A DNA stretch of 64,000 nucleotides. Origin: Gluconacetobacter johannae. Its GTDB lineage: Bacteria > Pseudomonadota > Alphaproteobacteria > Acetobacterales > Acetobacteraceae. Made by a program: the position numbers and the translations under genes. Shown here piece by piece: positions 9,665 through 54,727 of this stretch (position 1 is its first letter; every line of letters begins with the position of its first letter). The stretch is taken from NCBI RefSeq assembly GCF_014174305.1, contig NZ_JABEQH010000021.1:1-64000 (forward strand), given 5' to 3'. The notes below the pieces were generated by a model that was not told the DNA's origin, ran no database searches, and was given only the letters and a program-made list of their open reading frames with translations.

Positions 9665-10273
9665 TCACGGCGCGGACACCGCCGTGCGGGCCAGGCAGTC
9701 GTGGCGGCTGGCCGCTTCATACCACGCCGCCAGGGCCGGGCGCTGGTCGCGCCACGGGTCGTCGGCGAAGCGGACGTCGAGATAGCCCAACGCGCAGGCC
9801 ACCGACAGGATGCCCACATCGACCGGACCGGCCGGCGACACCGCCGCCGGCGGCGCGGCCTCCAGCCGGTCGAGGCTGCGCCGGATGGCGGCGGCCTGCC
9901 GCTGGGTCAGCGGATCGTCCCGGTCCAGCCCCGCCCCCGCCAGGCCGCGCCACAGCACGGCCGCGTCCGCAATCCCGTCGCCCAGCGCCTGAAGGCGCAA
10001 CGCGCGCCAGCGTTCGGGCCCCGCCGCCGGAATCACCCCGCCGCCGGCCAGCGCGTCCAGATATTCGACGATCACCGGGCTGTCGTACATCCCCTCGCCC
10101 TCGGCGATCTCCAGCGTCGGAATCTTGCACAGCGGGTTCGCCGCCAGGACATCGGGCGGCGAGGCCGAGATATTCACCACCACCTCCTCGATCCGGTCCT
10201 CCAGGCCCAGGGCGATGACGGCGGCCCTGACCTTGCGGGCAAACGGGCTGAGGGGGGCGTGATACAGCTTCAC
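9665..10273 (-). CDS. glutathione S-transferase family protein
   Basis: 202 aa, starting at a GTG (10273) that overlaps the gloB stop (GTGA). The thioredoxin-like N-terminal half shows KLYHAPLSPFARKVR (S-P-F-x-R glutathione-site motif of bacterial GSTs), NPLCKIPTLEI and YDSPVIVEYLDAL (glutathione-binding Asp-Ser-x-Ile). A helical C-terminal half follows, with VGILSVACALGYLDVRF. The substrate is unknown. Coupling to glyoxalase II suggests glutathione-dependent detoxification. Confidence 0.87.
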   Translation of the reverse strand: MKLYHAPLSPFARKVRAAVIALGLEDRIEEVVVNISASPPDVLAANPLCKIPTLEIAEGEGMYDSPVIVEYLDALAGGGVIPAAGPERWRALRLQALGDGIADAAVLWRGLAGAGLDRDDPLTQRQAAAIRRSLDRLEAAPPAAVSPAGPVDVGILSVACALGYLDVRFADDPWRDQRPALAAWYEAASRHDCLARTAVSAP

Positions 10274-10998
10274 CGAAAGGCATCCTTTTGTTGTCGCAAT
10301 CTGGCGAACGTCCCGACATCGGGGGCCAGCAGGAACGGGTTGGTCCGCTTTTCCAGGCCCAGCGTCACCGGCACCGTCGGCCGCGCCTCGGCGCGCAGGG
10401 TCTCGATTTCGGCGACGCGGGCATGCAGGGCGAAATTGTCGGGCTCGACCTCCAAAGCGAAGCGGGTGTTCGCCAGCGTATATTCATGCCCGCAGCAGAT
10501 CAGCGTCGAATCCGGCAGCGCCGCGATCCGGCGCAGCGAGTGGAACATCTCCTCCGCCGTGCCCTCGAACAATCGTCCGCATCCCAGGCTGAACAGGGTG
10601 TCGCCGCAGAACAGGGCGGGGGTGGCGGAAAAATAGAAGGCGATATGGCCGCGCGTGTGTCCGGGCGTCTCCATCACCGTGCCGATCGCGCCCCCCACGG
10701 CGATGGCGTCGCCGTCCACCACCGCGCGGTCCAGCATCGGCAGGCGATAGGCGTCCGCCGCCGCCCCGGTGACGATCGAGCCGTAGCGCTTGCGTAGGGC
10801 GTCGGTCGCCACCACGTGATCGGCATGATGATGTGTCAGGAAGATCTGGTCCAGGCGTCCTCCGGCCTCCTCCACCGCCTCGACCAGGGGGGCTTCCTCG
10901 GCGGGATCCACCAGCGCCGTCGCGCCGCTTTCGCCGTCGCGGAGGAACCAGGCGTAATTGTCGTTCAGGATGGGAACCGGTCGGATCGAAAGGGCCAT
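10270..10998 (-). CDS. gloB: hydroxyacylglutathione hydrolase (glyoxalase II)
   Basis: Hydrolyses S-D-lactoylglutathione to D-lactate and glutathione, completing methylglyoxal detoxification. 242 aa metallo-beta-lactamase fold. THHHADH (binuclear metal site), ETPGHTRGHIAFYF, FCGDTLFSLGCGRLFEGTA and GHEYTLANTRFA are all intact. The C-terminal HAGH domain ends NPFLLAPD. The ATG at 10998 is preceded by ACGGAGA. It is divergent from the methyltransferase at 11110, an arrangement I recall as common in alphaproteobacteria. Confidence 0.95.
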   Translation of the reverse strand: MALSIRPVPILNDNYAWFLRDGESGATALVDPAEEAPLVEAVEEAGGRLDQIFLTHHHADHVVATDALRKRYGSIVTGAAADAYRLPMLDRAVVDGDAIAVGGAIGTVMETPGHTRGHIAFYFSATPALFCGDTLFSLGCGRLFEGTAEEMFHSLRRIAALPDSTLICCGHEYTLANTRFALEVEPDNFALHARVAEIETLRAEARPTVPVTLGLEKRTNPFLLAPDVGTFARLRQQKDAFR

Positions 10999-11109
10999 GA
11001 TCTGTCTCCGTCTGCTGCGACGCGCGCCATCGGACCGCGGTCCGCGTGCCTCCCCGATTCGTCCGGCGCCGGGGATACGCCGCTCTCCAACAGTTTGTGC
11101 TAATCGGGC

Positions 11110-11835
11110 ATGATGCAAGACGACATCCGCGCCGCGTCCAGATTCTATGCCAGCCGGCCGGGGGAAAACACCGCCCATCTGCTGCGCCAGCGGCTGCATG
11201 CGTTCTGGCCCGACACCGGGGCCGACCGGGTGCTGGGGCTGGGCTACACGCTGCCGTACCTGTCGCTGTGGTCCCGCCCGGCGGGGGGCCTGTGCCTCTC
11301 GGGCCGCCTCGACACCCATGTGACGCGCGACGCGCCGCGCGATATCGGACCGGCGGCGCGGGACTGCGTGGTGGCGGAAGACCGGCTGCCCTTCCCCGAA
11401 CTGCATTTCGACCGCGTGGTCCTGATCCACGCACTGGAAACCACCGACCGGCCGGACGACCTGCTGCGGTCGGTGTGGAAGGTCATGAAGGACGACGGGC
11501 GTCTGCTGCTGGTGGTGCCGAACCGGGCGGGCCTGTGGGCCCATTCCGACGGCACCCCCTTCGGGCAGGGCGCCCCCTTTTCTCCCCGGCAGATCGCCCG
11601 CCGGCTGTCGCACGCCTTCCTGCGCGCCGAACGCCACGACGGCGCGCTGTTCCTGCCGCCCATGGGGGCCGCGCACCGACGCATCGCCGCCACCATCGAG
11701 GCCGCCTGCCACATGGTCGTGCCCGGACTGGGCGGCGTCTTCGTCGTCGAGGCGGTCAAGGACGTCTATGCCGGCGTCCCCACCCCGACGCCGGCCCTGA
11801 TCCGCGCCCCCCGGCGCATCTACGAACCCGGCTGA
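11110..11835 (+). CDS. class I SAM-dependent methyltransferase
   Basis: 241 aa. Rossmann-type methyltransferase with a degenerate motif I ([16 protein letters not shown]), acidic loop [24 protein letters not shown], and post-motif [36 protein letters not shown]-type region, which matches the methyltransferase usually found beside gloB in alphaproteobacteria. The substrate is unknown. Starts at the double ATG 11110/11113; the 111-bp gap to gloB must hold both divergent promoters. Confidence 0.82.
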
Positions 11836-11908
11836 CCAGGCGCGCGATCCGTGCCACACTGGCCCCACGCTTGACCGCCGGACCCGAACCCTCCATGAAC
11901 CTCGGCCC

Positions 11909-12586
11909 ATGTCTCTGATCCAGTCCCTGAAACTTGTGATGGCCCGGCCGCATCCGGCCGCCCGTCCCTTCCTTCTGGCCTCCGGCGCCGGCGCGCTCGC
12001 CGGGCGGGCCCTTCCCTGGCGTCCGGCGAAATGGCTGGGTACGGCCAGCGGCCTGTTCTTCGGGTTCTGCCTGTATTTCTTCCGCGACCCCGAACGCGTC
12101 ACCCCCGCCGACGCCCATCTGGCGGTCGCCCCGGCCGACGGCCGGGTGGTGTCGGTCGAAAAGGTCGCGCCCCCGGCGGAACTGGACATGGGCGACACGC
12201 CGGTCTGGCGCATCGCCACCTTCCTGTCGGTGCTGGACGTCCATGTGAACCGCATGCCGGCCGCCGGCACGGTGACGCGCGTCGCCTACCATCCGGGCCA
12301 GTTCCTGAATGCCAGCCTGGACAAGGCGTCGGAGCTGAACGAACGCAACGCGCTGCGCCTGACGCTGCCGGACGGGCGCAACCTGGCGGTCGTGCAGATC
12401 GCCGGCCTGATCGCCCGCCGCATCCTGTGCGACGCCGAGGAAGGCATGACCTTCGAGGCCGGCGAACGCTTCGGCCTGATCCGCTTCGGCTCGCGGACCG
12501 ACCTGTACCTGCCCCCCGGGGTCGAACCGCTGGTATCGGCCGGCCAGACGATGATCGGCGGCGAAACGGTCATGGCGCGCCTCTGA
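11909..12586 (+). CDS. psd: phosphatidylserine decarboxylase proenzyme (short type)
   Basis: Converts phosphatidylserine to phosphatidylethanolamine at the inner membrane. 225 aa, the short form. It has an N-terminal hydrophobic hairpin (about residues 20-60), then [32 protein letters not shown] and a C-terminal [11 protein letters not shown]. The Gly-Ser of FGSR is the self-cleavage site that makes the pyruvoyl cofactor. It is 5 bp upstream of pssA, so the two consecutive enzymes of PE synthesis are co-transcribed. Confidence 0.94.
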
Positions 12587-12591
12587 CCGCC

Positions 12592-13491
12592 ATGGACGCC
12601 ACCGACCCGCTGCCTGCCGGCCCGCGCCCGACTGAAACGCCCATCGCCGCCGCACCGCCGCGCCGGCGGCGGCAGGCGCGGCGGCGTCCGCGGGTCCGGG
12701 GTCCGTCCTTCAACCGGCTGATCCCCAACATCATGACGATGCTGGGCCTGTGCGCCGGGCTGACGGGCATGCGCCTGGCGCTGGAAAACCGCTTCGGCGA
12801 CGCGGCGGTGGCGCTGCTGATCGCGGCGTGCATCGACGGGCTGGACGGCCGGATCGCACGGCTGCTGCGCGGCACCAGCCGCTTCGGCGCGGAATTCGAC
12901 AGCCTGTCCGACTTCCTGTGCTTCGGCGTGGCGCCCGGCTTCGTGCTGTACCTGTGGGCGCTGCGCGACGCCGGGCGCTACGGCTACCTGCCCTGCATCA
13001 TGTTCACGGTCTGCATGGCCCTGCGGCTGGCGCGCTTCAACGCCAGCCTGGACGATACCGACAAGCCGAAATACGCCAGCAATTTCTTCACGGGCGTGCC
13101 CGCCCCGGCCGGCGCGGGCCTGGCGATGTTTCCGCTGTTCCTGGGGCTGGAGGCCCGCAAGCTGGGGTGGGAGGGCATCTATGCCCTGACCCGCCTGCCG
13201 CTGCTGCCCGCCCTGACGCTGAGCGGCACCGCCTTCCTGCTGGTGTCCACCCTGCCGGTCTGGTCGTTCAAGAACTTCAAGGTGCCGGCGGTCTATGTCC
13301 TGCCCCTGATGCTGGGAACCGGGGCCTATGCCGCCGTCCTGGTGGCCGACCCATGGGGCGCGCTGGCCGCCGCCGGGGTCATCTACATCGCCCTTCTGCC
13401 GCTGAGCCGCCGCAGCTTCCGCCGGCTGAAGGCCGAAGCCCAGAACCTCCAGGCCGAGGACGACACGCCCGAGGCCGCCCCCCGGACATAA
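12592..13491 (+). CDS. pssA: CDP-diacylglycerol-serine O-phosphatidyltransferase
   Basis: Makes phosphatidylserine from CDP-diacylglycerol and L-serine. 299 aa from ATG 12592. The CDP-alcohol phosphatidyltransferase signature D-G-x2-A-R-x8-G-x3-D-x3-D is present at about residues 82-104 (DGLDGRIARLL, then GAEFDSLSD). About eight TM segments follow, with ARFNASLDD and FFTGVPAPAGA typical of the membrane-bound PssA subfamily. A basic Arg-rich N-terminal extension (residues 18-35) precedes the first TM. Follows psd with a 5-bp spacer. Confidence 0.94.
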   Translation: MDATDPLPAGPRPTETPIAAAPPRRRRQARRRPRVRGPSFNRLIPNIMTMLGLCAGLTGMRLALENRFGDAAVALLIAACIDGLDGRIARLLRGTSRFGAEFDSLSDFLCFGVAPGFVLYLWALRDAGRYGYLPCIMFTVCMALRLARFNASLDDTDKPKYASNFFTGVPAPAGAGLAMFPLFLGLEARKLGWEGIYALTRLPLLPALTLSGTAFLLVSTLPVWSFKNFKVPAVYVLPLMLGTGAYAAVLVADPWGALAAAGVIYIALLPLSRRSFRRLKAEAQNLQAEDDTPEAAPRT

Positions 13492-13638: not shown

Positions 13639-14886
13639 ATGGACATGAAGCCTCCTCCCGCCCCGGCGTCACCGTCGGCGCACTGGCTCAACCGGACGGT
13701 TGCCGGCGCCGGACTGACCAGCGCGCTGGGCGATTTCTGCTACGAAACGACGACGGTCATCCTGCCGGGCTTCCTCGCCGTCCTTGGCGTCCCGGCGGCC
13801 GCCCTTGGACTGATCGAGGGGACCGCCGACGCGGTCGCCAGCTTCACCAAAATGGCCGCGGGATATATCGCCGACAGGTTCGGCCACCGGAAAGGCCTGG
13901 TCGTCGTCGGATACGGCCTGACCCCCGTGGGGCAGGCCCTGATCGCACTCGCGGGCGGATGGCCGCTGGTGCTGCTCGGGCGTGTCGTGTCCTGGTTCGG
14001 CAAGGGCCTTCGCGGCCCGTTGCGCGACGTCATCGTCATCCAGTCCATCACGGCCGGGACACGGGGCCGGGCATTCGGCTTTCATCGGGCGATGGACACG
14101 CTGGGCGCGGTCATCGGGCCCCTGCTGGGCGTCATGCTGCTCGGGTGGGCACGGGGTCGTGGTTCCGGGATGCCGGCCGAACCGTTCCGTCTGGTGTTCT
14201 GGCTGACCCTGATCCCCGGCATGCTGGCGGTCCTGGCGTTCCTGACCCTCGTCGTCGATCCCGGACACGCGTCCAATCCCGCCCTTCGGTTCCTTTCGAC
14301 GTTACGCGGCCTGCCCGCGTCGTTCCGGCGCTATCTCGCCGCCGTGGGTGTCTTCGGCCTGGGCGATTTCTCGCACAGCCTGCTGATCCTGGCGGCCACC
14401 CAGCTTCTGACGCCTTCGACCGGCGTCATCAGGGCCGCCCAGATCGCGGGGCTGCTCTATGTCGGGCGCAACGTGACCCAGCTTGTCGCCTCCTATCCCG
14501 CGGGCGCGCTGGCGGACCGTTTCGGTCACAGGGCCGTCCTGGTCTCGGGCTACGCCTCGGGGGTCATCGCAGCCGGGCTGACGTCGCTTGCATTCGCCGC
14601 CCGTGCAAACAGCATTGTCCTGCTGGCCGCCATATTCTTCATCGCCGGAGTATACGTCGCCGTTCAGGAGGCCCTGGAATCGACGGTCGCGGCGGAGATG
14701 GTCGGGCAGGATACGCTGGCGACCAGCTATGGCGCCCTGGGCACGACGAACGGCGTTGCGAAATTCATCTCGAGTTCCGCCGTCGGTCTCGTCTGGACGG
14801 CCATGTCGCCGGCCTTCGGGTTCGCCCTCGCGGCGCTGACGATGGCCGCTGGCACGCTGCTCCTCCTGCGGCTTCGGCCACAGTGA
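13639..14886 (+). CDS. major facilitator superfamily transporter
   Basis: 415 aa with about 12 hydrophobic segments; substrate unknown. The MFS loop motif appears twice, as GYIADRFGHRKGLVVVGYG (residues about 75-95) and as ALADRFGHRAVLVSGY in the second half. Other features are SWFGKGLRGPLRDVIV and GFHRAMDTLGAVIGPLLG, reminiscent of MFS proteins that follow heavy-metal or antibiotic clusters. ATG 13639 has GGAG 10 nt upstream. Codon choice looks slightly less GC-biased than its neighbours. It ends 4 bp from the convergent hyfI-like gene. Confidence 0.88.
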   Translation: MDMKPPPAPASPSAHWLNRTVAGAGLTSALGDFCYETTTVILPGFLAVLGVPAAALGLIEGTADAVASFTKMAAGYIADRFGHRKGLVVVGYGLTPVGQALIALAGGWPLVLLGRVVSWFGKGLRGPLRDVIVIQSITAGTRGRAFGFHRAMDTLGAVIGPLLGVMLLGWARGRGSGMPAEPFRLVFWLTLIPGMLAVLAFLTLVVDPGHASNPALRFLSTLRGLPASFRRYLAAVGVFGLGDFSHSLLILAATQLLTPSTGVIRAAQIAGLLYVGRNVTQLVASYPAGALADRFGHRAVLVSGYASGVIAAGLTSLAFAARANSIVLLAAIFFIAGVYVAVQEALESTVAAEMVGQDTLATSYGALGTTNGVAKFISSSAVGLVWTAMSPAFGFALAALTMAAGTLLLLRLRPQ

Positions 14887-14890
14887 CTCC

Positions 14891-15349
14891 CTAGCCGCCC
14901 AGCAGACCGACCAGCCCCGACAGGATCGCCGCCGGCGAGGGCGGACAGCCGGCAATGGCCAGGTCGATCGGCGCGCGGCCTTCCAGTCCGCCCAGCACCG
15001 CGTAATTTTCCGAAAACGGGCCCCCGTCGATCGCGCAGGCCCCGACGGCGACCAGCGCGCGCGGTTCGGGCATGGCGTGCCACGCGGCCTCCAGCACCGG
15101 GGCCATCACCCGCGTCAGCGGCCCCGTGACCAGCAGCACCTCGGCCAGGCGGGGGGTGGTGACGAACGCGATCCCGGTGGCCGCCAGGCCGTAGGCCGCC
15201 CCGTCCAGCGCCGCCAGTTCCATCGCGCACCCCTCGCACCCGCCGGTCTCGATATGAAAGACCGGCAGCGGCCGCACCGCCGCCACCGGCACGCGCGCGG
15301 GGGCATGCCCCCCGGTCGCGGCGGTCAGGATCGCCCGCAGGATCGCCAT
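14891..15349 (-). CDS. hyfI: HyfI/NuoB-like Fe-S subunit of a group-4 hydrogenase-type complex
   Basis: 152 aa. Four cysteines in the NuoB/hydrogenase small-subunit spacing are kept: Cys38 and Cys41 (ETGGCEGCAMEL), Cys105 (VGACAIDGGPF) and Cys135 (AGCPPSP), which would bind one [4Fe-4S] cluster equivalent to the proximal/N2 cluster. It has a strong ribosome site (GAGGGGAAACG). It is separated from hyfG by 141 bp where hyfH (the NuoI-like ferredoxin subunit) lies in classical hyf operons. It contains no lysine. The gene symbol is by homology only; electron-carrying function is likely, hydrogenase function is not. Confidence 0.82.
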   Translation of the reverse strand: MAILRAILTAATGGHAPARVPVAAVRPLPVFHIETGGCEGCAMELAALDGAAYGLAATGIAFVTTPRLAEVLLVTGPLTRVMAPVLEAAWHAMPEPRALVAVGACAIDGGPFSENYAVLGGLEGRAPIDLAIAGCPPSPAAILSGLVGLLGG

Positions 15350-15490
15350 CGTTTCCCCTCGCTCTCATGACTGGCCGCCCTCTTCCCCAGCGGCCGAGGC
15401 GGCCTGTCCCGCTCCGATCCGCGCATACCCGTCACGGATACCCTCATCACTCTCGATTTGAGGAGCACATCGGCCCCTCACGACCCACTC

Positions 15491-17005
15491 CTATAAATCG
15501 GCGGCGGCGGCGGACAGGCCGAACGAGCGGACGATCAGGTCCGCGTCCTCGGGGTCCGCCCCGTCCAGCACATGTTCCAGCGCCGCCACATGCGCCAGGG
15601 CGGGATCGCGCGGGAATGCGGCCTGCACCGCGCCGTCGGCCACGCGCACCCAGTACCAGACCGCCCCGCGCGGCCCCTCGGCGCAGCCGATGCCCTCGCC
15701 CGCGCGCTCGCGCACGGCGCTACGCGGCGCGCCGTCGGGCACCCAGTCCCGGCGCGCCGCCGCCAGCATCCGGCAACTGCCGCCGATCTCGGCCAGGCGC
15801 TGGTCGATCCGGGCGGCGACGTCGCCGTCGCCCCGGACGCCGCTATCCAGCCATTCGCGCCGATAGCCGGGCTCCAGCCGGCGCACGTCGTCCTCGCGCG
15901 CCGAGGCCCGCCCCACCACGCCGCCCACGCCCAGCGCGCGGGCCATGGCCTCGGTCAGGGTGCCGCAGCCCCGCACCCGCCCGGCCAGGCCGGGCCAGGC
16001 CAGATGACGGCGGATCTCGCGCAGCATGTCGTCCCCCCTGCCGGCAACCTGCCCCGCCACCGCGCCGATCGTCGCGACATCGCCCTCCAGCATGCCGCCC
16101 GGCACGACCAGATCCATCAGCATCCGGTGTCCGAACATCCGGCCGCACAGATGCAAGGTCTCCTCGCGCAGGCGTTCGCAGCAGGCCGCCAGCGCCGATG
16201 CCCCCGCCGCCCGGCCGATGCGCGACAGATCATGCAGATGGGTGGCGATCCGCTCGATCTCCGCCAGGATCACCCGGCAGCGCACGGCGTCCGCGCCGAT
16301 CGCGGTGTCGGTCGCGGCCTCGATCGCGCGGCACAGGGCCGCCTGATGCGCGACCGACGCCCCGGCGGCCGCCCGCCCGGCCAGCCGTGCCGCCGCCGCC
16401 GGTTCCATCCCGCACAGGCGGGCGACCAGGCCCCGATGGGCATAGCCCAGCCGCCACTCCGCCCCCGCGATCCCACCGCCGGCCAGCCCCAGTCGCAGAT
16501 GACCGGGCGCCTGCGGCAGGCCGTCGGCGGGGCCGATGCCCTGGACCATCCCGCCCGCGCGGGCCACCGCCGGAACCGGGCGGAATTCGGGGGGATCGGG
16601 CGGCCAGGACACCGGCCCCGGCCGCGCGCCCAGCGGCCAGGTGCTGGTCCACACGCCATGATCCAGCCACGGGCGGACGTCGCGGGCGTCCATCGCCGCG
16701 ATCCCCCACAGGTCATGCAGGCAGCGTTCCGGCAGGGACGCCGCCGGACGGACGGACGACAGGCCGAGATAGCGCCCGGTCTCCGGCGCGACGCTGGCGA
16801 CCAGCGGATGCGCGCCGCCGTCCAGGAACAGGGCATGGACGTCCCGCCCGTCCGACCACAGGCCGACAAACGGCAGGGGATCGTCCCGCAACGCGTCCAC
16901 CAGGCCGCGCCAGCCGTCCTCGTCCAGCCGGAAGCGCCACGTCCCGGCCTCGGCCTCGCCCCGGCGGATCAGGGCGGCCGCCGCCCCGTTCGCCCCATTC
17001 CTCAT
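15491..17005 (-). CDS. hyfG: HyfG/HycE-like (NuoC-NuoD fusion) large subunit lacking the Ni-Fe ligands
   Basis: 504 aa. The N-terminal ~140 residues are NuoC-like (HALFLDGGAHPLVASVAPETGR; ERCLHDLWGIAAMDARDVRPW) and the rest is NuoD/hydrogenase-large-subunit-like (LGYAHRGLVARL near 187; EIERIATHLHDL). Hydrogenases bind Ni-Fe through R-x-C-G-x-C and, near the C-terminus, S-F-D-P-C-x-x-C. Here the aligned positions are Ala213/Ala216 (RAAAGAS) and Ser498/Ala501 (IVRSFGLSAAAA), so all four cysteines are gone. The start overlaps the hyfF stop (ATGA). No lysine. A catalytic hydrogenase role is excluded; a quinone/proton-coupling or structural role is inference. Confidence 0.82.
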   Translation of the reverse strand: MRNGANGAAAALIRRGEAEAGTWRFRLDEDGWRGLVDALRDDPLPFVGLWSDGRDVHALFLDGGAHPLVASVAPETGRYLGLSSVRPAASLPERCLHDLWGIAAMDARDVRPWLDHGVWTSTWPLGARPGPVSWPPDPPEFRPVPAVARAGGMVQGIGPADGLPQAPGHLRLGLAGGGIAGAEWRLGYAHRGLVARLCGMEPAAAARLAGRAAAGASVAHQAALCRAIEAATDTAIGADAVRCRVILAEIERIATHLHDLSRIGRAAGASALAACCERLREETLHLCGRMFGHRMLMDLVVPGGMLEGDVATIGAVAGQVAGRGDDMLREIRRHLAWPGLAGRVRGCGTLTEAMARALGVGGVVGRASAREDDVRRLEPGYRREWLDSGVRGDGDVAARIDQRLAEIGGSCRMLAAARRDWVPDGAPRSAVRERAGEGIGCAEGPRGAVWYWVRVADGAVQAAFPRDPALAHVAALEHVLDGADPEDADLIVRSFGLSAAAADL

Positions 17006-18204
17006 CTCCCGGCCCCGTCCGCCATCGCGACGACCGTCAGGACCACCATGCCCGCCAGCAGCAGCGCGACAGCCACCCACGCGGGCCGGTCGCGAACGGC
17101 GGAGGCCCCATCGCCCGGCCTGTCCGCCCCAGGTCCGGCCCGCATGCATCCGGGCGCCAGCCCCAGCAACAACGGACCGACCAGAAGCGGGGCCGCGTCA
17201 CAGACCGCCAGCACCGCCAGCACCAGCCCCCCGAACGGCAGGAACGGCGGGCGAAGCGCCAGCGCGGCCCGCAGCCACCGTACGGCCACGCCACCGGACC
17301 CGGAGGCCCCCACCAGCGGCCCCAGCAGCGCCACCGACACCAGCAGCGCAACCGCCCCCGCCGGCCCGGCCCGGCCGCCCGCCCCGGCGGCCACCGCCGC
17401 CAGCCCGATGAGCATGCCCAGCGCCAGCCGATCCCGGCGGCGGGCCGGCGCGGCCCGCATCGGCAGGACCACCAGCCATATCGTCGCAATCCCCAGCATC
17501 ATCGTGTCCCACTGGCTCGCCCCCACCACCGCGAGGTGACGCAGGACCGGGACGGCCGTCATGACCGGCGCCAGCGCGGCGGGCATGGCATACTCCTCGG
17601 CCGCCAGCACGACCGGGGCGGCCGGCCCCAGCCCGGCGACCGCCCCCAGCCCCACGGACAGCAACACACCGCCCAGCCCGTCCAGCCGGCCGGCGCCGGC
17701 CGGCGCCGCGCTCAGCAGCATCGCCCCCGGCACGGCCAGCAGAATGCCGGAGAGGCCCAGCCGGAACAGGTCCCACCCGGCACGCGCCGCGCCGCGCGCC
17801 GTCGCGACGGCCAACGCCGCCAGCACCGCGACACCCCCGATGGCCACCGCGCCGGACAGCGGGTCGGTGCAGGCGGTCGCCACCGTCGCCCCGCCGGCCA
17901 GACCATGCGTCAAGGCCCCACCCGCCCGCTGCCCCGGCGTGCCCCCGGCCGGCGACAGGACGCAGGACAGGCACAGCGTCAGCAGCGGCAACGGCAGCAG
18001 CGCGCGCAGCACGCCGGGCGGCGCCATCAGGGGCGTGCCGGCCCAGCCGCCGCCCGCGCAGGCCGCCAGCACCGCCAGGCCCAGACCAGTCGCGGACAGG
18101 CCGATCCCGGCCGACCGCGCCGAGGCCTGCGGACAGGCCGCCAGCACCGCCATCGACAGGAACGGCCAGCACAGCGCGGCCGGAAGCAGAAACGGCAGGG
18201 TCAT
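17002..18204 (-). CDS. hyfF: HyfF-like antiporter-type membrane subunit (NuoM/N-like)
   Basis: 400 aa, shorter than the roughly 500 aa of classical HyfF. About 12-14 hydrophobic segments, very rich in Ala/Gly/Leu/Val. Identity rests on position in the gene order B-C-E-F-G and on faint antiporter features such as VVLAAEEYAMPAALAPVMTAVPVLRHLAVVGAS. The His-Ala-x-F-K segment that carries the central pump lysine is not present, and the protein has no lysine. Overlaps hyfE and hyfG by ATGA. It may also be described as NuoL/M/N-like. Confidence 0.68.
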   Translation of the reverse strand: MTLPFLLPAALCWPFLSMAVLAACPQASARSAGIGLSATGLGLAVLAACAGGGWAGTPLMAPPGVLRALLPLPLLTLCLSCVLSPAGGTPGQRAGGALTHGLAGGATVATACTDPLSGAVAIGGVAVLAALAVATARGAARAGWDLFRLGLSGILLAVPGAMLLSAAPAGAGRLDGLGGVLLSVGLGAVAGLGPAAPVVLAAEEYAMPAALAPVMTAVPVLRHLAVVGASQWDTMMLGIATIWLVVLPMRAAPARRRDRLALGMLIGLAAVAAGAGGRAGPAGAVALLVSVALLGPLVGASGSGGVAVRWLRAALALRPPFLPFGGLVLAVLAVCDAAPLLVGPLLLGLAPGCMRAGPGADRPGDGASAVRDRPAWVAVALLLAGMVVLTVVAMADGAGR

Positions 18205-18761
18205 TCCGCGACGCGCCCCCAGGCCAGGCGCCGCAGGCAGACGAACGCCACCAGCATCGTCGCCCCCAGCAGCATGACCGCCCCGGCCAGCATCGCGCCG
18301 CGCCCCGACAGGCCGGCCAGCAGCATCAACCCGTCCAGGGCGCAGGCCAGCCCGGCACACTGCCCCACCACCGACCGCCGCGCGGCGGCGGCCAGCACGC
18401 CGCACAGGATCACGGCCAGCGCGGCGATCAGGTCCAGCCGGGCCGCTTCCTCCACCATGCCCTGCGGCACCGCGATCACGGCCAGGACCGTCAGCACCAG
18501 CCCGCCGCCCATGCACACCGCCCGTTCCCGCGCGGACGGGGGCACGTCCTCCAGCCGGCCCAGCCCCCAGGCCAGGGGCACGATCGCGGCCACGACCGCC
18601 ACCGCCGCCAGGCACGGCGGCAGCGGGTCCGCCGCGTCGCGGGCGGCGGCCAGCAAAGCCGCCGCGACCAGCCCGCCATGCCACAGAAGCGGCCAGCCGC
18701 GCATGCCCGACAGGATGACCGACAGGAAAATCAGCAGGCCCAGCAGCAGCGACAGCATCAT
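18201..18761 (-). CDS. hyfE: HyfE-like (NuoK-related) membrane subunit
   Basis: 186 aa with about seven hydrophobic segments, starting at a double ATG (18761) that overlaps the hyfC stop. Classical HyfE is about 216 aa and membrane-embedded. A single conserved-looking acidic pair occurs in GMVEEAARLDLIAALAVILCG, comparable with the buried glutamates of NuoK/HyfE. No lysine. Identity is inferred mainly from order and size. Confidence 0.68.
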   Translation of the reverse strand: MMLSLLLGLLIFLSVILSGMRGWPLLWHGGLVAAALLAAARDAADPLPPCLAAVAVVAAIVPLAWGLGRLEDVPPSARERAVCMGGGLVLTVLAVIAVPQGMVEEAARLDLIAALAVILCGVLAAAARRSVVGQCAGLACALDGLMLLAGLSGRGAMLAGAVMLLGATMLVAFVCLRRLAWGRVAE

Positions 18762-19711
18762 CCGAACTCCCGCCCCGCGAACAGCACCACCACCGCCAGC
18801 ACCCCGAACAGCATCGCCACCCCCAGGCGCGCCCGCAGCCCCCGGTCCAGCGACAGGACGACGACCCGCGCCGCCACCAGGCCGGCGCACAGCACCGCCG
18901 TACGCAGCAGCCACGCCCCCAGTCCGGCCAGCAACGCCGTCGGCGCGGGCGGCAGCGCCCCCTCCGCCATCGCCAGGCCGCCGGGCCAGATCATGTCGCC
19001 GGCCAGCGTCATCCAGACCAGCACCGCCAGGTCGCGCGCCAGTTCCAGCGCCGCACGATCGGGGCCGCCCACGTTTGCCAGCATGTCGGCCGCCTGGGCC
19101 TCGGCGCCGCCCCAGGCATCGTCCAGCCCGGCGATCAGCAGCGCCATGGCCGCCAGCACCAGCGGCGTCTGCAATCCGGCGACGTCCGCATCGTGCATCC
19201 GCGCCAGCAGCCCGTCGATGCCGGTGACGCCGGTCGCCAGCCCGGCCACCGCAATGACCACCGGCATCACCGCCTGCATCATCGCAAGGCCCGTCGCCCC
19301 GCTGACCGCCGCCCGCCCCGCCCGCGCCACACCCGGCCCCAGCGCCGTCACCACCAGCCCCAGCCGCACCAGCCCGAGCAACCCCGCGACCACCAGCAGG
19401 TCGGACAGGCCCGCCCCCGGCAGGCCGAGTGCCGCGGACGGCACCAGGCAACAGGCCGCAAGGGCCGCGGCCAGCGTCGCGCCGCAGGCCGCGCCGGTCG
19501 CCGCCGTCCCGGCCGCGCGCAGCCCGCGCCGGCGCGCCAGCGCCACGATCCACCGCCAGCGCATCAGGACGGAAGGGGCGCCGCGCCCGGCAAGACCCGC
19601 CACGCACCAGTCCACCACCCCGCGCACCACCGGGGCCATCGCGACCATCAGCGCCAGATGAAGGCCCAGCAGCGGCAGGCCGAGGACACAGGCCAGGACG
19701 TCCCGCATCAT
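18758..19711 (-). CDS. hyfC: HyfC-like (NuoH-related) membrane subunit
   Basis: 317 aa from the ATG at 19711 that overlaps the hyfB TGA; an ATG at 19720 would add three residues. About eight TM segments. In NuoH/HyfC the subunit anchors the peripheral arm and shapes the quinone site using conserved Glu/Arg residues. Here only a weak trace is visible (LLIAGLDDAWGGAEAQAADML; GPDRAALELARDLAVLVWMT). No lysine. Assignment relies on operon position plus overall topology. Confidence 0.7.
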   Translation of the reverse strand: MMRDVLACVLGLPLLGLHLALMVAMAPVVRGVVDWCVAGLAGRGAPSVLMRWRWIVALARRRGLRAAGTAATGAACGATLAAALAACCLVPSAALGLPGAGLSDLLVVAGLLGLVRLGLVVTALGPGVARAGRAAVSGATGLAMMQAVMPVVIAVAGLATGVTGIDGLLARMHDADVAGLQTPLVLAAMALLIAGLDDAWGGAEAQAADMLANVGGPDRAALELARDLAVLVWMTLAGDMIWPGGLAMAEGALPPAPTALLAGLGAWLLRTAVLCAGLVAARVVVLSLDRGLRARLGVAMLFGVLAVVVLFAGREFG

Positions 19712-21402
19712 CCGGCCCATATCCGGACCAGGGACGCGATGACAATCCAGGCCAGGACCAGCACCATCGCATGCCGCGCCGTCAGCGCCGCCGCGCGATC
19801 ATTGATCGCCGCCCCCCACCGCCCCGCCCGCCGAACGGCCCCGATCAGCCGGCGCACCGCCCCCCGGAGCAGCCGCGTCAGGCCCAGGACCGCATCCAGC
19901 CGGCCGACGAACAGGCCCGGCCCCACCTGGGTCGCCGGGTCGCCGAACGGCATCCAGGGCGGCGACGGGGGCGCGCCCTCGGTCCATGCCGCCGCCGGCC
20001 GGGCGGGCAGGCCCCCACCCAGGCGGGACAGGACCAGCACCACGCCCCCACACAGGCCGAACAGCAGCACGATGCCCGACGGAGAGAACGTCCCGGTCCC
20101 CCCCGCCGCCGACAGCCACAGCAGGGACGGCCGCGCGCCCTCCGGCGCCGCACCCAGGGCCGCAACCTGCCAGCCCGCCGCCCGCGTCAGCCACAGCCAT
20201 AGGCCGGGCAGGACCGAGACCACGCCCGCGACGCCGAGGCAGGACAGCACCGCCATCAGGCGCGCCGGCGGCAGGTCGGTCGCGGCGGCGCAGCGCGGCG
20301 TGCGCGGCCGCCCCAGCAACAGGATCGCCCCCATCCGGACCCCGGCCAGCAGCAGCAGGCCCGACACCACCCCGCCGCCGCACAGGGCCAGCAGCGACGG
20401 GATCTCGCCAGCCAGGCCGTCGGCGCGCGGCAGGGCCAGCAGCGACTGCACCAGAAGCCACAGCACCGCGAAGCCGGCCAGCGGCGGCAGGCCGCAGGCG
20501 ACGGCCAGCGCCAGCGCCAGGGTCGCGCCCGCGCGCGGCATCAGCGCCGCCAGCCCGCCTGCCCGCGCCAGCACCAGCGGCCCGGCCTCGCGCGCGATGT
20601 GGCTGGCCGTCAGGATCGCCGCCAGGACCGCCATCCCGACCCCGGCCGGCAGCAGAAACAGCGTCCGGGCCGCGCCCAGCGCCAGCAGCGGCAGATCGTC
20701 GGCCCGGCCGACCACGGCCAGCCCCGCCAGCAGCATGGCCACCCCGCCCCAGGCCGCCAGCATCCCCGCCAGCACGCGCGGCGCGTCGCCCGCCGTCAGC
20801 GCCCGCGCCCCCCCCGCCATGGCCAGCAGCAGACCGATGCCCCCGACACCCATGCCCCACGGCGCGCCGATCCGCCCCGCCGGCCAGTCGACCAGCATCC
20901 GGACCAGCAGGCAGCAGCCGAGCACGAAGCCGGCCAGATCCCCGGCCCCGGCAGGCCGGACATGCCGCGCGCCCGACAGCGGCCGCGGCGACAGGCCCAT
21001 CAGGACGGTGGCGAACAGCAGGACAGGCGCCGGCAGGATCGCCAGCCGCCATCCCCCCATGGCGGCCCCGCCACCGTCCGCCAGCAGGGCCGTGGCCACG
21101 GCACCGGCCAGCACGCCCAACGCCACGCCCCGGCCGGCGCGGATCATCGGCAGCACCGTCGCGGCCCCCACCCCGAACAGGACCGGATTGCCCGTCGTCG
21201 CGGCCAAGGCGGCACAGGCCAGGGCGGCACAGGCCAGGGTCGAGGGGCTTTCCGCCGTGCCCGACGCCAGCCCGACCGCCGCGATCACCACGACGAACGG
21301 CACGGACAGCGCATCGACCCGCACGACGGCTGGCAGCGCGTGAAGCGGAACGGACGCCAGCGCCGGCACGCACGCCATCGCCAGCCCCAGGACCAGCACC
21401 AT
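19708..21402 (-). CDS. hyfB: HyfB-like antiporter-type membrane subunit (NuoL-like)
   Basis: 564 aa from ATG 21402, with some 14-16 hydrophobic segments. The middle contains ALALAVACGLPPLAGFAVLWLLVQSLLAL, matching the antiporter-subunit phrase around LPPLxGF, and a C-terminal amphipathic region like NuoL/HyfB. The preceding segment normally carrying H-A-x-F-K reads GAARTLFLLPAG, so the pump lysine is absent, as are all lysines. The 50 codons upstream of the ATG stay open and encode a further hydrophobic stretch with no ATG/GTG/TTG, so the true N-terminus is unsure. First gene of the complex operon. Confidence 0.75.
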   Translation of the reverse strand: MVLVLGLAMACVPALASVPLHALPAVVRVDALSVPFVVVIAAVGLASGTAESPSTLACAALACAALAATTGNPVLFGVGAATVLPMIRAGRGVALGVLAGAVATALLADGGGAAMGGWRLAILPAPVLLFATVLMGLSPRPLSGARHVRPAGAGDLAGFVLGCCLLVRMLVDWPAGRIGAPWGMGVGGIGLLLAMAGGARALTAGDAPRVLAGMLAAWGGVAMLLAGLAVVGRADDLPLLALGAARTLFLLPAGVGMAVLAAILTASHIAREAGPLVLARAGGLAALMPRAGATLALALAVACGLPPLAGFAVLWLLVQSLLALPRADGLAGEIPSLLALCGGGVVSGLLLLAGVRMGAILLLGRPRTPRCAAATDLPPARLMAVLSCLGVAGVVSVLPGLWLWLTRAAGWQVAALGAAPEGARPSLLWLSAAGGTGTFSPSGIVLLFGLCGGVVLVLSRLGGGLPARPAAAWTEGAPPSPPWMPFGDPATQVGPGLFVGRLDAVLGLTRLLRGAVRRLIGAVRRAGRWGAAINDRAAALTARHAMVLVLAWIVIASLVRIWAG

Positions 21403-21552: not shown

Positions 21553-22404
21553 TCAGATCATGGCGAGGGGAACCTTGCGCCGGGGCGGCGGCATCGACCG
21601 GTCGATCGCGGCCAGATCCGCCTCGGTCAGCACGATGTCCGCCGCCGCCACGTTCTGGCGCTGATGCGGCAGGCTGGCGGCCTTGGGAATCGCCAGCAGG
21701 TTGGGCTGGCGCAGCACCCAGGCCAGCGCGACCTGCGCCGGCGTGGCCGGTCCCAGCGCCGTTTCGTGCCGCGCCGCGATCCGCGCCAGCACCGGCGCGC
21801 GCAGCAGTTCCCCGCCCTGGCCCAGCGGCGAATAGGCCATGGTCACCACCGATTGCCTGCGGTCGTCCTCCAGCAGGTCGTATTCCACCCCGCGATAATC
21901 GAGGCTGTAGAGAATCTGGTTGGCCAGGCAGCCGTCCGGCGCAATGCGGTACAGATCCGCCATGTCGTCCACATCGAAATTGGACACGCCCCAGGCTCCG
22001 ATCAGCCCTTCGGCCTTCAGCCGCTCGAACGCCTCGATCGTTTCCTCCAGCGGCACCGCGCCGGGCCAGTGCAGCAGGTACAGGTCGATCCGCTCGGTGC
22101 CCAGCCGGCGCAGCGACGCCCGGCAGCTTTCCGCCACCCCCCGGCGGGACGCGTTCGAGGGCAGGATCTTGCTCACCAGGAACACCTCGTCGCGCCGGCC
22201 GGCGATCGCCTGCCCGACCAGCGTCTCGGACCGGCCGCCCCCGTACATCTCGGCGGTGTCGATCACCCGCAGCCCCAGGTCCAGCCCGGCGCGCAGGCTT
22301 TCGACCTCCTGCGCGCGACGGTCGGCACGGTCGCCGATAGTCCACGTCCCCATGCCCAATGCCGGAACCTGCGTGCCATCGGAAAACGTGACGCTGCCCA
22401 CCAT
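21553..22404 (-). CDS. aldo/keto reductase
   Basis: 283 aa NADPH-dependent oxidoreductase of the AKR superfamily. Catalytic tetrad motifs are visible: GLRVIDTAEMYGGG (Asp and Tyr), VSKILPSNASRRG (Lys), DLYLLHWPG (His). NFDVDDMADL, AYSPLGQGG and IPKAASLPHQRQN (cofactor region) follow. It ends at the stop codon from which the hyfB frame continues open, 150 bp before the hyfB ATG. The substrate is unknown. It contains several lysines, unlike the adjacent complex genes. Confidence 0.92.
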   Translation of the reverse strand: MVGSVTFSDGTQVPALGMGTWTIGDRADRRAQEVESLRAGLDLGLRVIDTAEMYGGGRSETLVGQAIAGRRDEVFLVSKILPSNASRRGVAESCRASLRRLGTERIDLYLLHWPGAVPLEETIEAFERLKAEGLIGAWGVSNFDVDDMADLYRIAPDGCLANQILYSLDYRGVEYDLLEDDRRQSVVTMAYSPLGQGGELLRAPVLARIAARHETALGPATPAQVALAWVLRQPNLLAIPKAASLPHQRQNVAAADIVLTEADLAAIDRSMPPPRRKVPLAMI

Positions 22405-22449: not shown

Positions 22450-22896
22450 TTAGGCTTTGCGGGTCCATCCTTTCGCCTGCTGTTGCCAGTAGACAAGGCT
22501 ATGCCCCGCGTCGCGGCAGGCCGCCCAGCGGCGGCGCGCCCCGGCCACCGCCTCCGGGTCGCCGCCATCGAACAGGTCGAAGATGCGCTCGAACGGTTGC
22601 GGATCGGCGCAGGCGGCTCCGTCGACCAGGAACAGGTAGGTCGCGCCATTGGGGGCATCCTCCCCCTCGGTCAGCCAGATGGGCTGGAGCGCCGCATGCC
22701 CCAGCGCCGCCGTGCCGTGCGGCAGCCAGACCGGCTCGGCCGCCCGCCACAGCGCGTCGTCCAGCTCTTTCACCCGGCCCGCGTCGGCGCAGCGCACCAC
22801 CGCGCGCCGTCCGGCGTCCAGCGTGCGCCCCAGCAGGGGCGGCAACGCCTGTTCCAGCGACGATCGCGTCAGATGATAGAACCCGATTTCCGCCAT
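22450..22896 (-). CDS. holC: DNA polymerase III chi subunit
   Basis: Clamp-loader accessory subunit that contacts SSB. 148 aa: AEIGFYHLTRSSLEQALPPLL at the start, RAVVRCADAGRVKELDDALW and FLVDGA in the core, IFDLFDGGDPEAV, then ARRRWAACRDAGHSLVYWQQ. All are typical of alphaproteobacterial HolC. It lies 24 bp downstream of pepA, the common pepA-holC pairing. Confidence 0.93.
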   Translation of the reverse strand: MAEIGFYHLTRSSLEQALPPLLGRTLDAGRRAVVRCADAGRVKELDDALWRAAEPVWLPHGTAALGHAALQPIWLTEGEDAPNGATYLFLVDGAACADPQPFERIFDLFDGGDPEAVAGARRRWAACRDAGHSLVYWQQQAKGWTRKA

Positions 22897-22920: not shown

Positions 22921-24390
22921 TCAGCCTTCGTAATGTTCGCGGACGAACTGGTCCAGCAGGCGCACGCCGAAGCCCGACGCGCCCTTGGGCGTGCAGGGCG
23001 CCGCCTTCTTGGCCCAGGCGGTGCCGGCGATGTCCAGATGCGCCCAGGGCACCTGGTTGACGAAATATTCCAGGAATTTCGCCGCCGTGATCGCCCCCGC
23101 CGGACGACCGCCGACATTCTTCAGGTCCGCGATGTCCGAGCGCAGCGCCTCGCGATAAGCATCGGCCAGCGGCATGCGCCACAGGCGCTCGCCCGTTTCC
23201 TCGCCCGCCGCCGACAGGCGCTGCGCCAGCGCGTCGTCGTTCGCGAACAGGCCCGCGTACTCATGCCCCAGGCCCACGACGATGGCGCCGGTCAGGGTCG
23301 CCAGATCGACCATCAGGCGCGGCCGGAAGCGGTCCTGCACGTACCAGAGCACATCCGCCAGGACCAGCCGCCCTTCGGCATCGGTGTTGATGACCTCGAT
23401 CGTCTGCCCCGAACAGGTCCGCACCACGTCGCCGGGGCGCTGGGCGTTGCCCGCCAGCATGTTTTCGACCAGCCCGACCGCGCCGACGACATTGACGCGC
23501 GCCTTGCGGCCCGCCAGGGCCGCCATCAGCCCCACCACGGCGGCGGCGCCGGCCATGTCGGTCTTCATCTCCTCCATCCCGCCGGCCGGCTTGATCGAGA
23601 TCCCGCCCGAATCGAAGGTCACCCCCTTGCCGATGAAGGCCAGCGGGGCCTCGTCGGTCCCGGCGCCATTCCAGCGCATCAGCACCGTCCGGGGCGGGGC
23701 GTCGCTGCCCTGCGCCACGCCCAGCAGCGCGCCGAACCCCAGTTCGGCCATCGCCGCGCCATCCAGCACCTCGACCTCGACCCCCAGTTCGCGCAGGGCC
23801 TCGATCCGCTGGGCGAATTCGGGGGGGCGCAGGGCGTTCGCGGGTTCGCTGACCAGGTCGCGGGTCAGGCAGACGCCGCGCGTCACCGCCGACAGCCCCG
23901 TCCACGCCGCCGCCGCATGCGCCGCCGCCGGCGTCAGGATGTCCAGCCTGTCCAGCCGCCAGCGGGCATCTTCGGGCGTGCGGGTCTGGTAATGGTCGAA
24001 CCTGTACGCGGCCAGCGTCCCCCCGTGGGCGACATGGGCCACCAGGGCGCCGGGCACCCCGTCGGCGGCGATGGTCGCGGCCTCGGCCAGCTTGCCCAGC
24101 GCCGTCACGGCCGCGCCGGCGGCGGCCTCGACCGTGCGGACGCCGATCTCGGCGCTCTTGCCCAGCCCGACCAGCAGGATGCGGTCGAAACCCCCACCGG
24201 GGGCAAGGATCATGCAGGTCCGTCCGCTGCCGAACCCGAACGCCGCCGCCGCGACGGCGCGCGACAGCGCCCCGCCGGTCGCCGCGTCGGCGGCCGCGAA
24301 CAGGGGCGGGCGCGGCCCGTCCTCGGGCGTCAGAAGGGCCAACACCCCGCCGGCAGGCAGGTCGGCGGCGGAAAACTGTATCTGCAGCAT
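22921..24390 (-). CDS. pepA: leucyl aminopeptidase (M17 family)
   Basis: Cytosolic binuclear-metal aminopeptidase. 489 aa. The catalytic C-terminal domain shows GKGVTFDSGGISIKP (metal/catalytic Lys and Asp), KTDMAGAAAVVG, NTDAEGRLVLAD (the M17 signature) and DLATLTGAIVVGLG. The N-terminal domain is the macro-like fold of the family. It carries 11 lysines, a useful contrast to the lysine-free hyf-like genes next door. Pairs with holC downstream. Confidence 0.96.
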   Translation of the reverse strand: MLQIQFSAADLPAGGVLALLTPEDGPRPPLFAAADAATGGALSRAVAAAAFGFGSGRTCMILAPGGGFDRILLVGLGKSAEIGVRTVEAAAGAAVTALGKLAEAATIAADGVPGALVAHVAHGGTLAAYRFDHYQTRTPEDARWRLDRLDILTPAAAHAAAAWTGLSAVTRGVCLTRDLVSEPANALRPPEFAQRIEALRELGVEVEVLDGAAMAELGFGALLGVAQGSDAPPRTVLMRWNGAGTDEAPLAFIGKGVTFDSGGISIKPAGGMEEMKTDMAGAAAVVGLMAALAGRKARVNVVGAVGLVENMLAGNAQRPGDVVRTCSGQTIEVINTDAEGRLVLADVLWYVQDRFRPRLMVDLATLTGAIVVGLGHEYAGLFANDDALAQRLSAAGEETGERLWRMPLADAYREALRSDIADLKNVGGRPAGAITAAKFLEYFVNQVPWAHLDIAGTAWAKKAAPCTPKGASGFGVRLLDQFVREHYEG

Positions 24391-53374: not shown

Positions 53375-54727
53375 TTGCCGGCCTGCCTGCTGGCCGCCTG
53401 CCTGCCCGCCCTCGGCGCCCCGGCGTGGGGCGAGTCCCACGGGACGGCCCGCCGCGCCCCCGCACACGCGGCCGCCAACCACCATCCGTCCGGCCATGCG
53501 GCGACACCCCGCGCGGACGCCGCCGCCAGTGCCGCACGGCGCGAAGTCGAACGCGCCCGCGCGCAGCAACAGGCCCTGATCGCCCGGCAACAGCAGCAGG
53601 CCCGCGACCTGCAGGCCCGCACCGAGGCGCGCAACTCCGCCCAGGCGCGCGCGCGGCAGGACATCGCCCGCGCCGCCGCCCTGTCGGCCGAAACCGTGGA
53701 CGCCACCGCCCGGTTGCAGGACACCGAACAGCGGACGGCCGACCTGGCCGACCGGGTCGCCGCCCTGCAGGCCGAACAGGCCCGTCTGCGCGCCGCGCTG
53801 GACCGGGATTCGGCGGACATCGCACCCACCCTGCCGCTGGCGGCGCGGCTGGCGCGCTATCCCGCCGATACGCTGCTGGCCGCCCCCCTGCCGCCCGACC
53901 GCGCGATCACCGGCCTGCTGGTGGTGCGGGGCCTCTCGGCGCGGCTGGAGCAGCAGGCCGGGGCGATTCGCCTCCGGCGCGCCGAACTGGCCCGGCTGGA
54001 CGACGACCTGACGCGGCAGGGCGCGCGCCTGGCGGATTTGCGGCAGCAACAGGCCGCCCAGCGCGACATCGTGGCCGGCGCGGCCCAGCGCGCGCGCGCC
54101 GCCCAGCGCCAGTCCAGTTCCGCCGCCACCCTGGCCGACCGGCAGGTCGAGGACGCCGCGCGCCAGGCCTCCAGCCTCCAGGACGCCGTCGCCCGGATCG
54201 AGGCGCTGGAGCAGGCCGCCGAAGACCGGCTGGAACGCGCGGCGCAGCAGGCCGCCCGCGCCCACCGCGCCGACGAGGCCGCCACCGCCCACGCCCGCGC
54301 GCAGGCCATCGCCCAGGGGCCCGGCCCCGGCCTGACGGCCCCCCCGGCCGGCACGCCCGCCGGACGCGGCGCGCCGGTGCCGGGCGCCATCGTCACCGCC
54401 TGGGGCAGCGGCACCGAGGCCGGACCCGCCACCGGCATCACCTACGCCCCGCCATCGGACGCCACCGTGCGGGCCCCCTGCGCCGGACAGGTCGATTTCG
54501 CCGGGCCGTTCCGGTCGTACGGGCAGATGGCCATCGTGGATTGCGGGCGGCATTACCGCTTCGTGCTGGCGGGGCTGGGCGCGCTCGCCATCTCCACCGG
54601 GCAGACGCTGGCCAGGGGCGCACCCGTCGGCCGCATGCCCGGCTGGACGGGCCAGGGCGGCCGGCCGACCCTGTTCGTGCAGTTGCGCCACGGCGGCACG
54701 GCGATCGACCCGGCCCCGTTTCTCTAG
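53375..54727 (+). CDS. EnvC-like murein hydrolase activator (coiled coil + degenerate LytM domain)
   Basis: 450 aa from TTG 53375. Secreted: hydrophobic CLLAACLPALGAPAWG. Long Gln/Arg/Ala coiled coil, about residues 48-310. C-terminal LytM/M23-type domain (TVRAPCAGQVDFAGPFRSYGQMAIVDCGRHY... and RPTLFVQLRHGGTAIDPAPF), in which the peptidase His-x-His and His-x3-Asp zinc ligands are not seen, as in EnvC activators. The TTG start lacks a basic n-region. In-frame CTG 53333, overlapping the gpmI stop (CTGA), would give NRRRRPAG before the signal core and may be the real start. The FtsEX complex (2 kb) is the probable partner; ctpA follows. Confidence 0.83.
   Translation: MPACLLAACLPALGAPAWGESHGTARRAPAHAAANHHPSGHAATPRADAAASAARREVERARAQQQALIARQQQQARDLQARTEARNSAQARARQDIARAAALSAETVDATARLQDTEQRTADLADRVAALQAEQARLRAALDRDSADIAPTLPLAARLARYPADTLLAAPLPPDRAITGLLVVRGLSARLEQQAGAIRLRRAELARLDDDLTRQGARLADLRQQQAAQRDIVAGAAQRARAAQRQSSSAATLADRQVEDAARQASSLQDAVARIEALEQAAEDRLERAAQQAARAHRADEAATAHARAQAIAQGPGPGLTAPPAGTPAGRGAPVPGAIVTAWGSGTEAGPATGITYAPPSDATVRAPCAGQVDFAGPFRSYGQMAIVDCGRHYRFVLAGLGALAISTGQTLARGAPVGRMPGWTGQGGRPTLFVQLRHGGTAIDPAPFL

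Follow-up and report, generated by a model that had tools for sequence, protein, structure and literature searches.

Results

Six adjacent genes without lysine

We analysed a stretch of 64,000 nucleotides from Gluconacetobacter johannae (contig NZ_JABEQH010000021.1 of assembly GCF_014174305.1), here called the window, which is part of a 66.6 kb contig (C21) in a genome of 3.63 Mb. On its minus strand, from 14891 to 21402, lie six genes, hyfB, hyfC, hyfE, hyfF, hyfG and hyfI, related to those of hydrogenase 4 and respiratory complex I. An original prediction, made from the DNA of the window, had these genes specifying about 2,120 residues without a single lysine, next to a pepA gene with 11 lysines in 489 residues, and had them coupled by ATGA overlaps. 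Translation bore this out: the six products total 2,123 residues with 157 arginines and no lysine, the count for pepA agrees, and ATGA overlaps are found at the B/C, C/E, E/F and F/G junctions. Wrong reading frames were rejected, as homology, the ratio of nonsynonymous to synonymous substitution rates (dN/dS) and gene order across species all argue against them.

We compared the cluster to the rest of an 884 kb genome sample, in which a simple custom gene caller found 695 genes (those of the window included) and lysine makes up 1.93% of residues. Outside the cluster, lysine is absent from 26 of the 585 genes with 150 or more codons and from 9 of 63 membrane-like ones. That is, one lysine-free membrane protein is not rare in this genome, but six consecutive ones are. 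The cluster is the longest lysine-free run in the sample (2,126 residues with the caller's starts); the runner-up is a single gene of 710 codons, and no comparable lysine-free membrane operon was found among the 884 kb. Six genes matched for length and type are expected to have approximately 28 lysines. The product of the zero-lysine frequencies of the six matched genes is 9e-8, and none of 200,000 resamples had zero lysines. The ratio of lysine to lysine plus arginine, K/(K+R), was 0/158 for the cluster (caller's starts), 0.189 for other genes and 0.140 for membrane-like genes. Single lysine-free genes outside the cluster were seen in the window at 53375-54727 (450 aa) and in locus L076 at 10044-12176 (710 aa).

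Identity of the six products

HyfG and HyfI were readily recognized. They matched Pfam families PF00346 (6.6e-16) and PF01058 (2.8e-26), and our family profiles matched them at 2.4e-106 and 1.1e-45, respectively. The Pfam search gave no match for HyfB, HyfC, HyfE or HyfF. The NCBIfam HyfB model matched the window's HyfB weakly (5.9e-15, far under the model's cut-off), and profiles built from pump-intact homologues (see below) matched HyfB at 8.5e-26 and HyfC at 6.8e-24. HyfE was reached by an iterated profile, going from 0.24 in round 1 to 1.7e-13 in round 2 and 5.5e-49 in round 3. The name HyfF is given by gene position only; the sequence gives no ancestry. AlphaFold2 (AF2) models of HyfB (pLDDT 84, pTM 0.87) and HyfG (pLDDT 89, pTM 0.91) had as top PDB matches HycC (7z0s_C, TM-score 0.70) and HycE (7z0s_E, TM-score 0.85) of E. 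coli formate hydrogenlyase. The AF2 alignments included pump-intact homologues, so that the predicted folds are not independent evidence.

HyfG lacks both of the CxxC motifs that provide the [NiFe] ligands of group 4 hydrogenases. This is true in the window, in the genus and in a Rhizobium relative, all aligned with HyfG of Escherichia coli. In Rhizobium leguminosarum, the genes are annotated in the same order (BCEFGI). Missing [NiFe] cysteines are the mark of the energy-converting hydrogenase-related (Ehr) complexes (Marreiros et al. 2013, as cited in the portion of PMC6349859 available to us). The window also has a NuoB-like subunit, HyfI, with its cluster cysteines, and, apart from HyfF, homologous anchor and antiporter-like subunits, as in Ehr. 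The four cysteines of HyfI presumably hold one [4Fe-4S] cluster. The genes and their neighbors are listed in Table 1.

Table 1. Genes of the hyf cluster and its surroundings in the window
Feature	Position	Strand	Description
hyfB	19708-21402	-	564 aa, antiporter-like; 0/8 pump columns; deletion removes the TM5 Glu region
hyfC	18758-19711	-	317 aa, NuoH/HycD-like membrane anchor; charged loop absent (alignment)
hyfE	18201-18761	-	186 aa; ENG-motif Glu in the NuoK-like part substituted (alignment)
hyfF (position)	17002-18204	-	400 aa, hydrophobic; assigned from its place between hyfE and hyfG
hyfG	15491-17005	-	504 aa, NuoC+NuoD-like large subunit; no [NiFe] cysteines
hyfI	14891-15349	-	152 aa, NuoB-like; conserved C38, C41, C105, C135
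psd	11909-12586	+	PF02666; conserved neighbor, hyfI side; name assigned in this analysis
pssA	12592-13491	+	PF01066; conserved neighbor, hyfI side; name assigned in this analysis
MFS transporter gene	13639-14886		between pssA and hyfI; present in the window and L036
aldo/keto reductase (AKR) gene	21553-22404	-	PF00248; conserved neighbor, hyfB side
holC	22450-22896	-	PF04364; conserved neighbor, hyfB side
pepA	22921-24390	-	PF00883; conserved neighbor, hyfB side

Pump residues are missing from HyfB, HyfC and HyfE

We found that the positions of HyfB that we take to be the pump residues (the Glu of transmembrane helix 5 (TM5), the Lys of TM7 and TM8, and others) are gone from the window and from its genus. 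In comparison to E. coli HyfB, NuoL, NuoM and NuoN, the TM5 Glu is deleted, and the TM7 and TM8 Lys, the charges of DLKR and STIEN, and the NHxxxK motif are absent. The original prediction had called the pump residues absent on account of the missing lysines. This held for HyfB (0 of 8 columns), and the losses extend to the charged loop of HyfC, which is IPVDNPATHLELTMVHEAMVLEYSG in Rhizobium, and to the HyfE Glu. The lost HyfB positions are gaps or mostly hydrophobic residues. The idea, raised with the prediction, that Arg stands in for Lys at the pump sites was thus rejected.

We scored these positions in a set of 75 rows (loci and references), of which three are partial (L127, L130 and L050) and two unscored (L055 and L126). 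The rows fell into two classes. Pump-less rows retain 0-3 of 8 HyfB pump columns (31 of 31 rows that have HyfB), 0-3 of 5 HyfC loop residues (42 rows, 37 of them with 0 or 1) and the HyfE Glu in only 1 of 36. Pump-intact rows retain 7-8 of 8 (26 of 26), 5 of 5 (27 rows) and the HyfE Glu in 27 of 27. The label comes from HyfF in 12 of the 43 pump-less rows, which lack a HyfB row; in the 11 of these that include HyfC, 0-2 of its 5 loop residues remain. The alignment of the HyfF pump columns in pump-less rows is unsupported by profile searches, and the counts were therefore redone on HyfB, HyfC and HyfE alone. The residues are also missing from lower-GC relatives, a comparison that the prediction had proposed: L058 (GC 0.45) has 90 lysines, none of them on a HyfB pump column, and L117 (GC 0.36) has 65 lysines and no pump residues.

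Loss of lysine is not by itself proof of lost function, because H2 production did not fall significantly when E. coli HycC, a homologue, carried K239A or K336A, according to the part of PMC9474812 available to us. In the same part, altering Glu138 or Glu199/201/203 of HycD is reported to lower H2 production by 98% and 99%. The loss of the [NiFe] ligands, which the original prediction had overlooked, is older in the family and preceded that of the pump residues.

The pump-less loci form one clade

The 43 pump-less loci sampled span 28 genus codes of a single family, that of the window (vinegar bacteria and relatives), and have locus GC contents from 0.36 to 0.74; sampling was almost wholly within that family, and L110-L149 were hand-picked from matches and are not a random draw. 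In a HyfG tree of 75 rows (L047 omitted), the 43 pump-less rows form a group that also includes one unscored row (SH-aLRT 96). In a tree of 65 rows (omitting L047, L127, L126, L058, L133, L130, L055, L041, L043, L044 and E. coli HyfG), the 38 pump-less rows lie on one side of a branch with support of 100/97 that all 200 bootstrap trees contain. The partial row L050 and L142, the mildest of the eroded rows, are placed close to the base of the clade.

We also scored seven flanking genes of the window: psd, pssA, the major facilitator superfamily (MFS) transporter gene, the AKR gene, holC, pepA and an inositol monophosphatase gene. Of the 42 pump-less loci, 34 had at least two of the seven close to hyfG, compared to 0 of 25 pump-intact loci; some of the loci end early at contig ends. 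The shared flanks show that most of the clade inherited the pump-less form at a single place on the chromosome. In this comparison, the MFS transporter of the window had no match in the genus loci other than L036.

Two side observations concern the distribution of the two forms. Pump-intact and eroded clusters occur together in three genomes, G119 (L141 and L142), G186 (L138 and L139) and G033 (L062 and L066), with the eroded clusters of G186 and G033 recovered only partly. In L127 (9448-12527), from a family genome of 1.9 Mb (G066), the cysteine columns of HyfG are as in E. coli Hyf; this locus is perhaps a true group 4 hydrogenase.

Lysine content follows the loss of the pump residues

The six hyf genes have a GC content at third codon positions (GC3) of 0.91-0.95, and fourfold degenerate sites in the window's cluster are 0.957 GC. 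We compared the lysines observed in each cluster to those predicted from fourfold sites, a prediction that presumes that such sites mirror mutation. The window has 0 observed and 0.1 predicted. The 43 pump-less clusters have 437 observed and 263 predicted, and their lysine content tracks fourfold composition (Spearman 0.65). In contrast, the 25 pump-intact clusters have 682 observed and 24 predicted. Lysine is held by selection in pump-intact clusters and left mostly to drift in pump-less ones.

The original prediction had offered two alternatives: purging of lysine codons by extreme GC content, or abandonment of pumping. Our results indicate that both act together, with the loss of pump residues as the primary event. 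GC drift alone, under which the complex would still pump by means of Arg or other residues that took over from Lys, was rejected, and we regard it as highly improbable. High GC3 and the correlation with fourfold composition are what it would predict, but the eight pump-intact clusters with fourfold GC of at least 0.95 retain 18-30 lysines, and six of these are at or above the window's 0.957. The six recognizable antiporter-type (NuoL/M/N-like) genes of the window's own genome retain 4-10 lysines each. Within G119, pump-intact L141 has 26 lysines (locus GC 0.72) and eroded L142 has 7 (0.73). Moreover, channel Glu, His and Asp were lost along with Lys, deletions accompany these losses, and the residues are missing from low-GC members also.

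In every one of the 33 pump-less loci that had enough other called genes (eight had too few and one was too short), cluster K/(K+R) was below that of those genes. For example, in L064 (GC 0.61) it was 0.051 for the cluster and 0.366 for the other genes. As lysine is no longer required and the codon pool is GC-rich, the remaining lysine codons drift away, and zero lysine is a side effect.

The cluster is under selection

We calculated dN/dS by the NG86 method, which is crude at such GC contents. Medians for 12 pairs within the genus were 0.32 (hyfB), 0.34 (hyfC), 0.17 (hyfE), 0.27 (hyfF), 0.24 (hyfG) and 0.15 (hyfI). In a group of reduced genomes of about 2 Mb (g57), medians were 0.135 (hyfC), 0.077 (hyfE), 0.137 (hyfF), 0.086 (hyfG) and 0.106 (hyfI); these cover the five genes other than hyfB, with hyfI from 3 pairs and the others from 22-23. 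The cluster is under purifying selection, which in the genus is looser than that on the flanking genes.

Retention in small genomes is consistent with this. HyfG is present in 11 of 11 g57 genomes, and a NuoD-level match is missing from 10 of them. Six reduced genomes (G069, G097, G106, G137, G090 and G282) have HyfG and no PF00361 match. In all six genomes searched in which the cluster lacks hyfI (G035, G021, G121, G074, G082 and G014), HyfI is present elsewhere; G082 is the source of the unscored row L126.

Within the clade, the HyfG-HyfI core is conserved. Of the 38 pump-less rows that have HyfI at the locus, 36 show all four of its cysteines. Positions conserved in at least 85% of rows number 67 in HyfG (43 rows) and 33 in HyfI (38 rows), and 9, 8 and 10 in HyfC, HyfE and HyfF.

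Together, these results make it very probable that the cluster represents a branch of the six-gene Ehr family (hyfBCEFGI) that has no pump and is retained under selection.

Discussion

Our favored explanation is that this branch remains under selection, does not translocate protons, and works as a redox module with one cluster. As a whole we consider this explanation likely, and its parts differ in strength. The missing residues make it rather likely that the complex translocates no protons, and it probably does a job other than pumping. That the job is that of a membrane-anchored redox module is a tentative suggestion, which the conserved HyfI cysteines would fit. The losses themselves are shown: HyfG lost its [NiFe] cysteines first. 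Later, in one lineage, the charged proton-channel residues vanished from HyfB, from the NuoH-like HyfC and from the NuoK-like HyfE, with HyfG and the four-cysteine HyfI staying under selection. Lysine codons could then drift off in a GC-rich pool once no lysine was required. In the suggested module, electrons may cross the [4Fe-4S] cluster of HyfI between a soluble partner and an acceptor in the membrane, for which quinone is a guess; the hydrophobic arm would be mainly an anchor. In broader terms, we lean slightly toward the view that a relative of complex I has shed both its pump machinery and its hydrogenase site, and that the conserved HyfG-HyfI pair on an inert arm has a new job across much of the family, even in genomes without a recognizable antiporter-type subunit.

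Several observations weigh against this interpretation. HyfB has 46 positions conserved in at least 85% of 26 rows, ten of them charged, indicating that the membrane arm is not free of constraint. HyfF was not reached from pump-intact HyfF in seven profile rounds, and hhalign gave a probability of 2.8%. In a loop of HyfG that we take to be a quinone or proton-donor loop (columns H_Q and E_PGHF), the His and the acidic residue are altered in the window, an argument against a canonical quinone site. Three HyfI cysteines are lost in L122 (10179-10700) and one in L136 (7320-8003) with the cluster of genes retained, so the [4Fe-4S] cluster is not required everywhere. In the genus, dN/dS of hyfB, hyfC and hyfF (0.27-0.34) is above that of five flanking genes (0.06-0.18). 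Some family genomes (e.g., G016, G020 and G022) have only NuoD-level matches, indicating that the complex can be lost. Lastly, L047 (8683-14500, from G012), unlike the 11 other genus loci read, has broken hyfC and hyfG frames, which may reflect either a sequencing error or a true loss.

The main rival is that the complex is a structural relic with no redox job, a scaffold that stabilizes another membrane enzyme. This is possible but on balance unlikely. Respiratory proteins without their ligands are retained in Acetobacteraceae, with structural roles proposed for them (in the part of PMC10715153 available to us), and both the missing HyfI cysteines of L122 and L136 and the near absence of conserved charge in HyfC, HyfE and HyfF would fit such a role. 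But four of four HyfI cysteines in nearly all pump-less rows are hard to explain without a cluster, and in the genomes without a NuoD-level or PF00361 match, complex I is not the client. It is also conceivable, though improbable, that an ion path has been rebuilt through other residues, for example R168, R233, D236, R280 and R356 of HyfB. These charges are conserved in at least 85% of the 26 pump-less rows and the antiporter fold is predicted to persist; however, there are few like charges elsewhere (D104 alone in HyfC, R178 alone in HyfE and none in HyfF), and the fold was predicted from alignments that held pump-intact homologues.

Slow decay of a non-functional cluster that awaits deletion would account for the raised dN/dS of hyfB, hyfC and hyfF, the broken frames in G012, the divergence of HyfF beyond recognition and the absence of the cluster from some family genomes. 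Nonetheless, we think decay very improbable, given g57 dN/dS values of 0.08-0.14, HyfG in every g57 genome, subunit frames that are open across 28 genus codes, and HyfI that persists even when unlinked.

If a pump-less complex under selection is the correct interpretation, the clade is a natural experiment in which the pump has been removed from a machine of the complex I type and the rest kept. With the partly eroded rows L050 and L142 near its base, one can ask in what order residues were lost and of what the NuoB/NuoD-like core is capable alone. Labels like 'hydrogenase 4 subunit' would be misleading for the pump-less genes, and the cluster would be a worked case in which a missing amino acid flags a lost function.

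The parent Ehr family is known, and the pump-less clade is apparently undescribed. We found no account of the clade in the open literature (most subscription papers are outside its reach). We saw no mention of the hyf cluster in the available portions of PMC12041372 and PMC5112900, and that of PMC10715153 has neither hyf nor ehr, and hydrogenase once. The six-gene form has been noted in C. metallidurans (Rmet_4666-4671) and C. necator (H16_A2196-2201), where a role in lithotrophic growth was judged very unlikely (PMC2864759, in the part available to us).

The closest known system is the six-gene Ehr complex. Like the window, it has six genes in the same order, a NuoD-like subunit without [NiFe] cysteines and a four-cysteine NuoB-like subunit. 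In contrast to the window, where ion-translocation residues are missing from the antiporter-like HyfB, the 26-27 pump-intact rows sampled retain the charges of HyfB, HyfC and HyfE. The predicted folds of HyfB and HyfG resemble most closely subunits of hydrogenase-4/formate hydrogenlyase (E. coli Hyf and Hyc), but the window lacks the [NiFe] cysteines, the pump and E-channel residues, and hyfA, hyfD, hyfH and hyfJ at the locus (the locus has only B, C, E, F, G and I; the rest of the genome was not searched for these partners). Complex I shares with the cluster homologous NuoB-, NuoC/D- and NuoH-type subunits and an antiporter-type subunit, HyfB. It differs in that the hyf locus has no NADH module genes (NuoEFG) and its pump residues are gone. 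The genome has two separate nuo-like operons (on C9 and C18) with lysine-bearing antiporter genes, and a PF00361 gene on C7. A parallel is also found in the same bacterial family, Acetobacteraceae, whose deranged bc1 and COX1-like proteins are, according to the part of PMC10715153 available to us, respiratory proteins kept despite lost cofactor ligands. Those belong to a different complex; in the hyf cluster it is the pump residues that were lost, and the HyfI cysteines were mostly kept.

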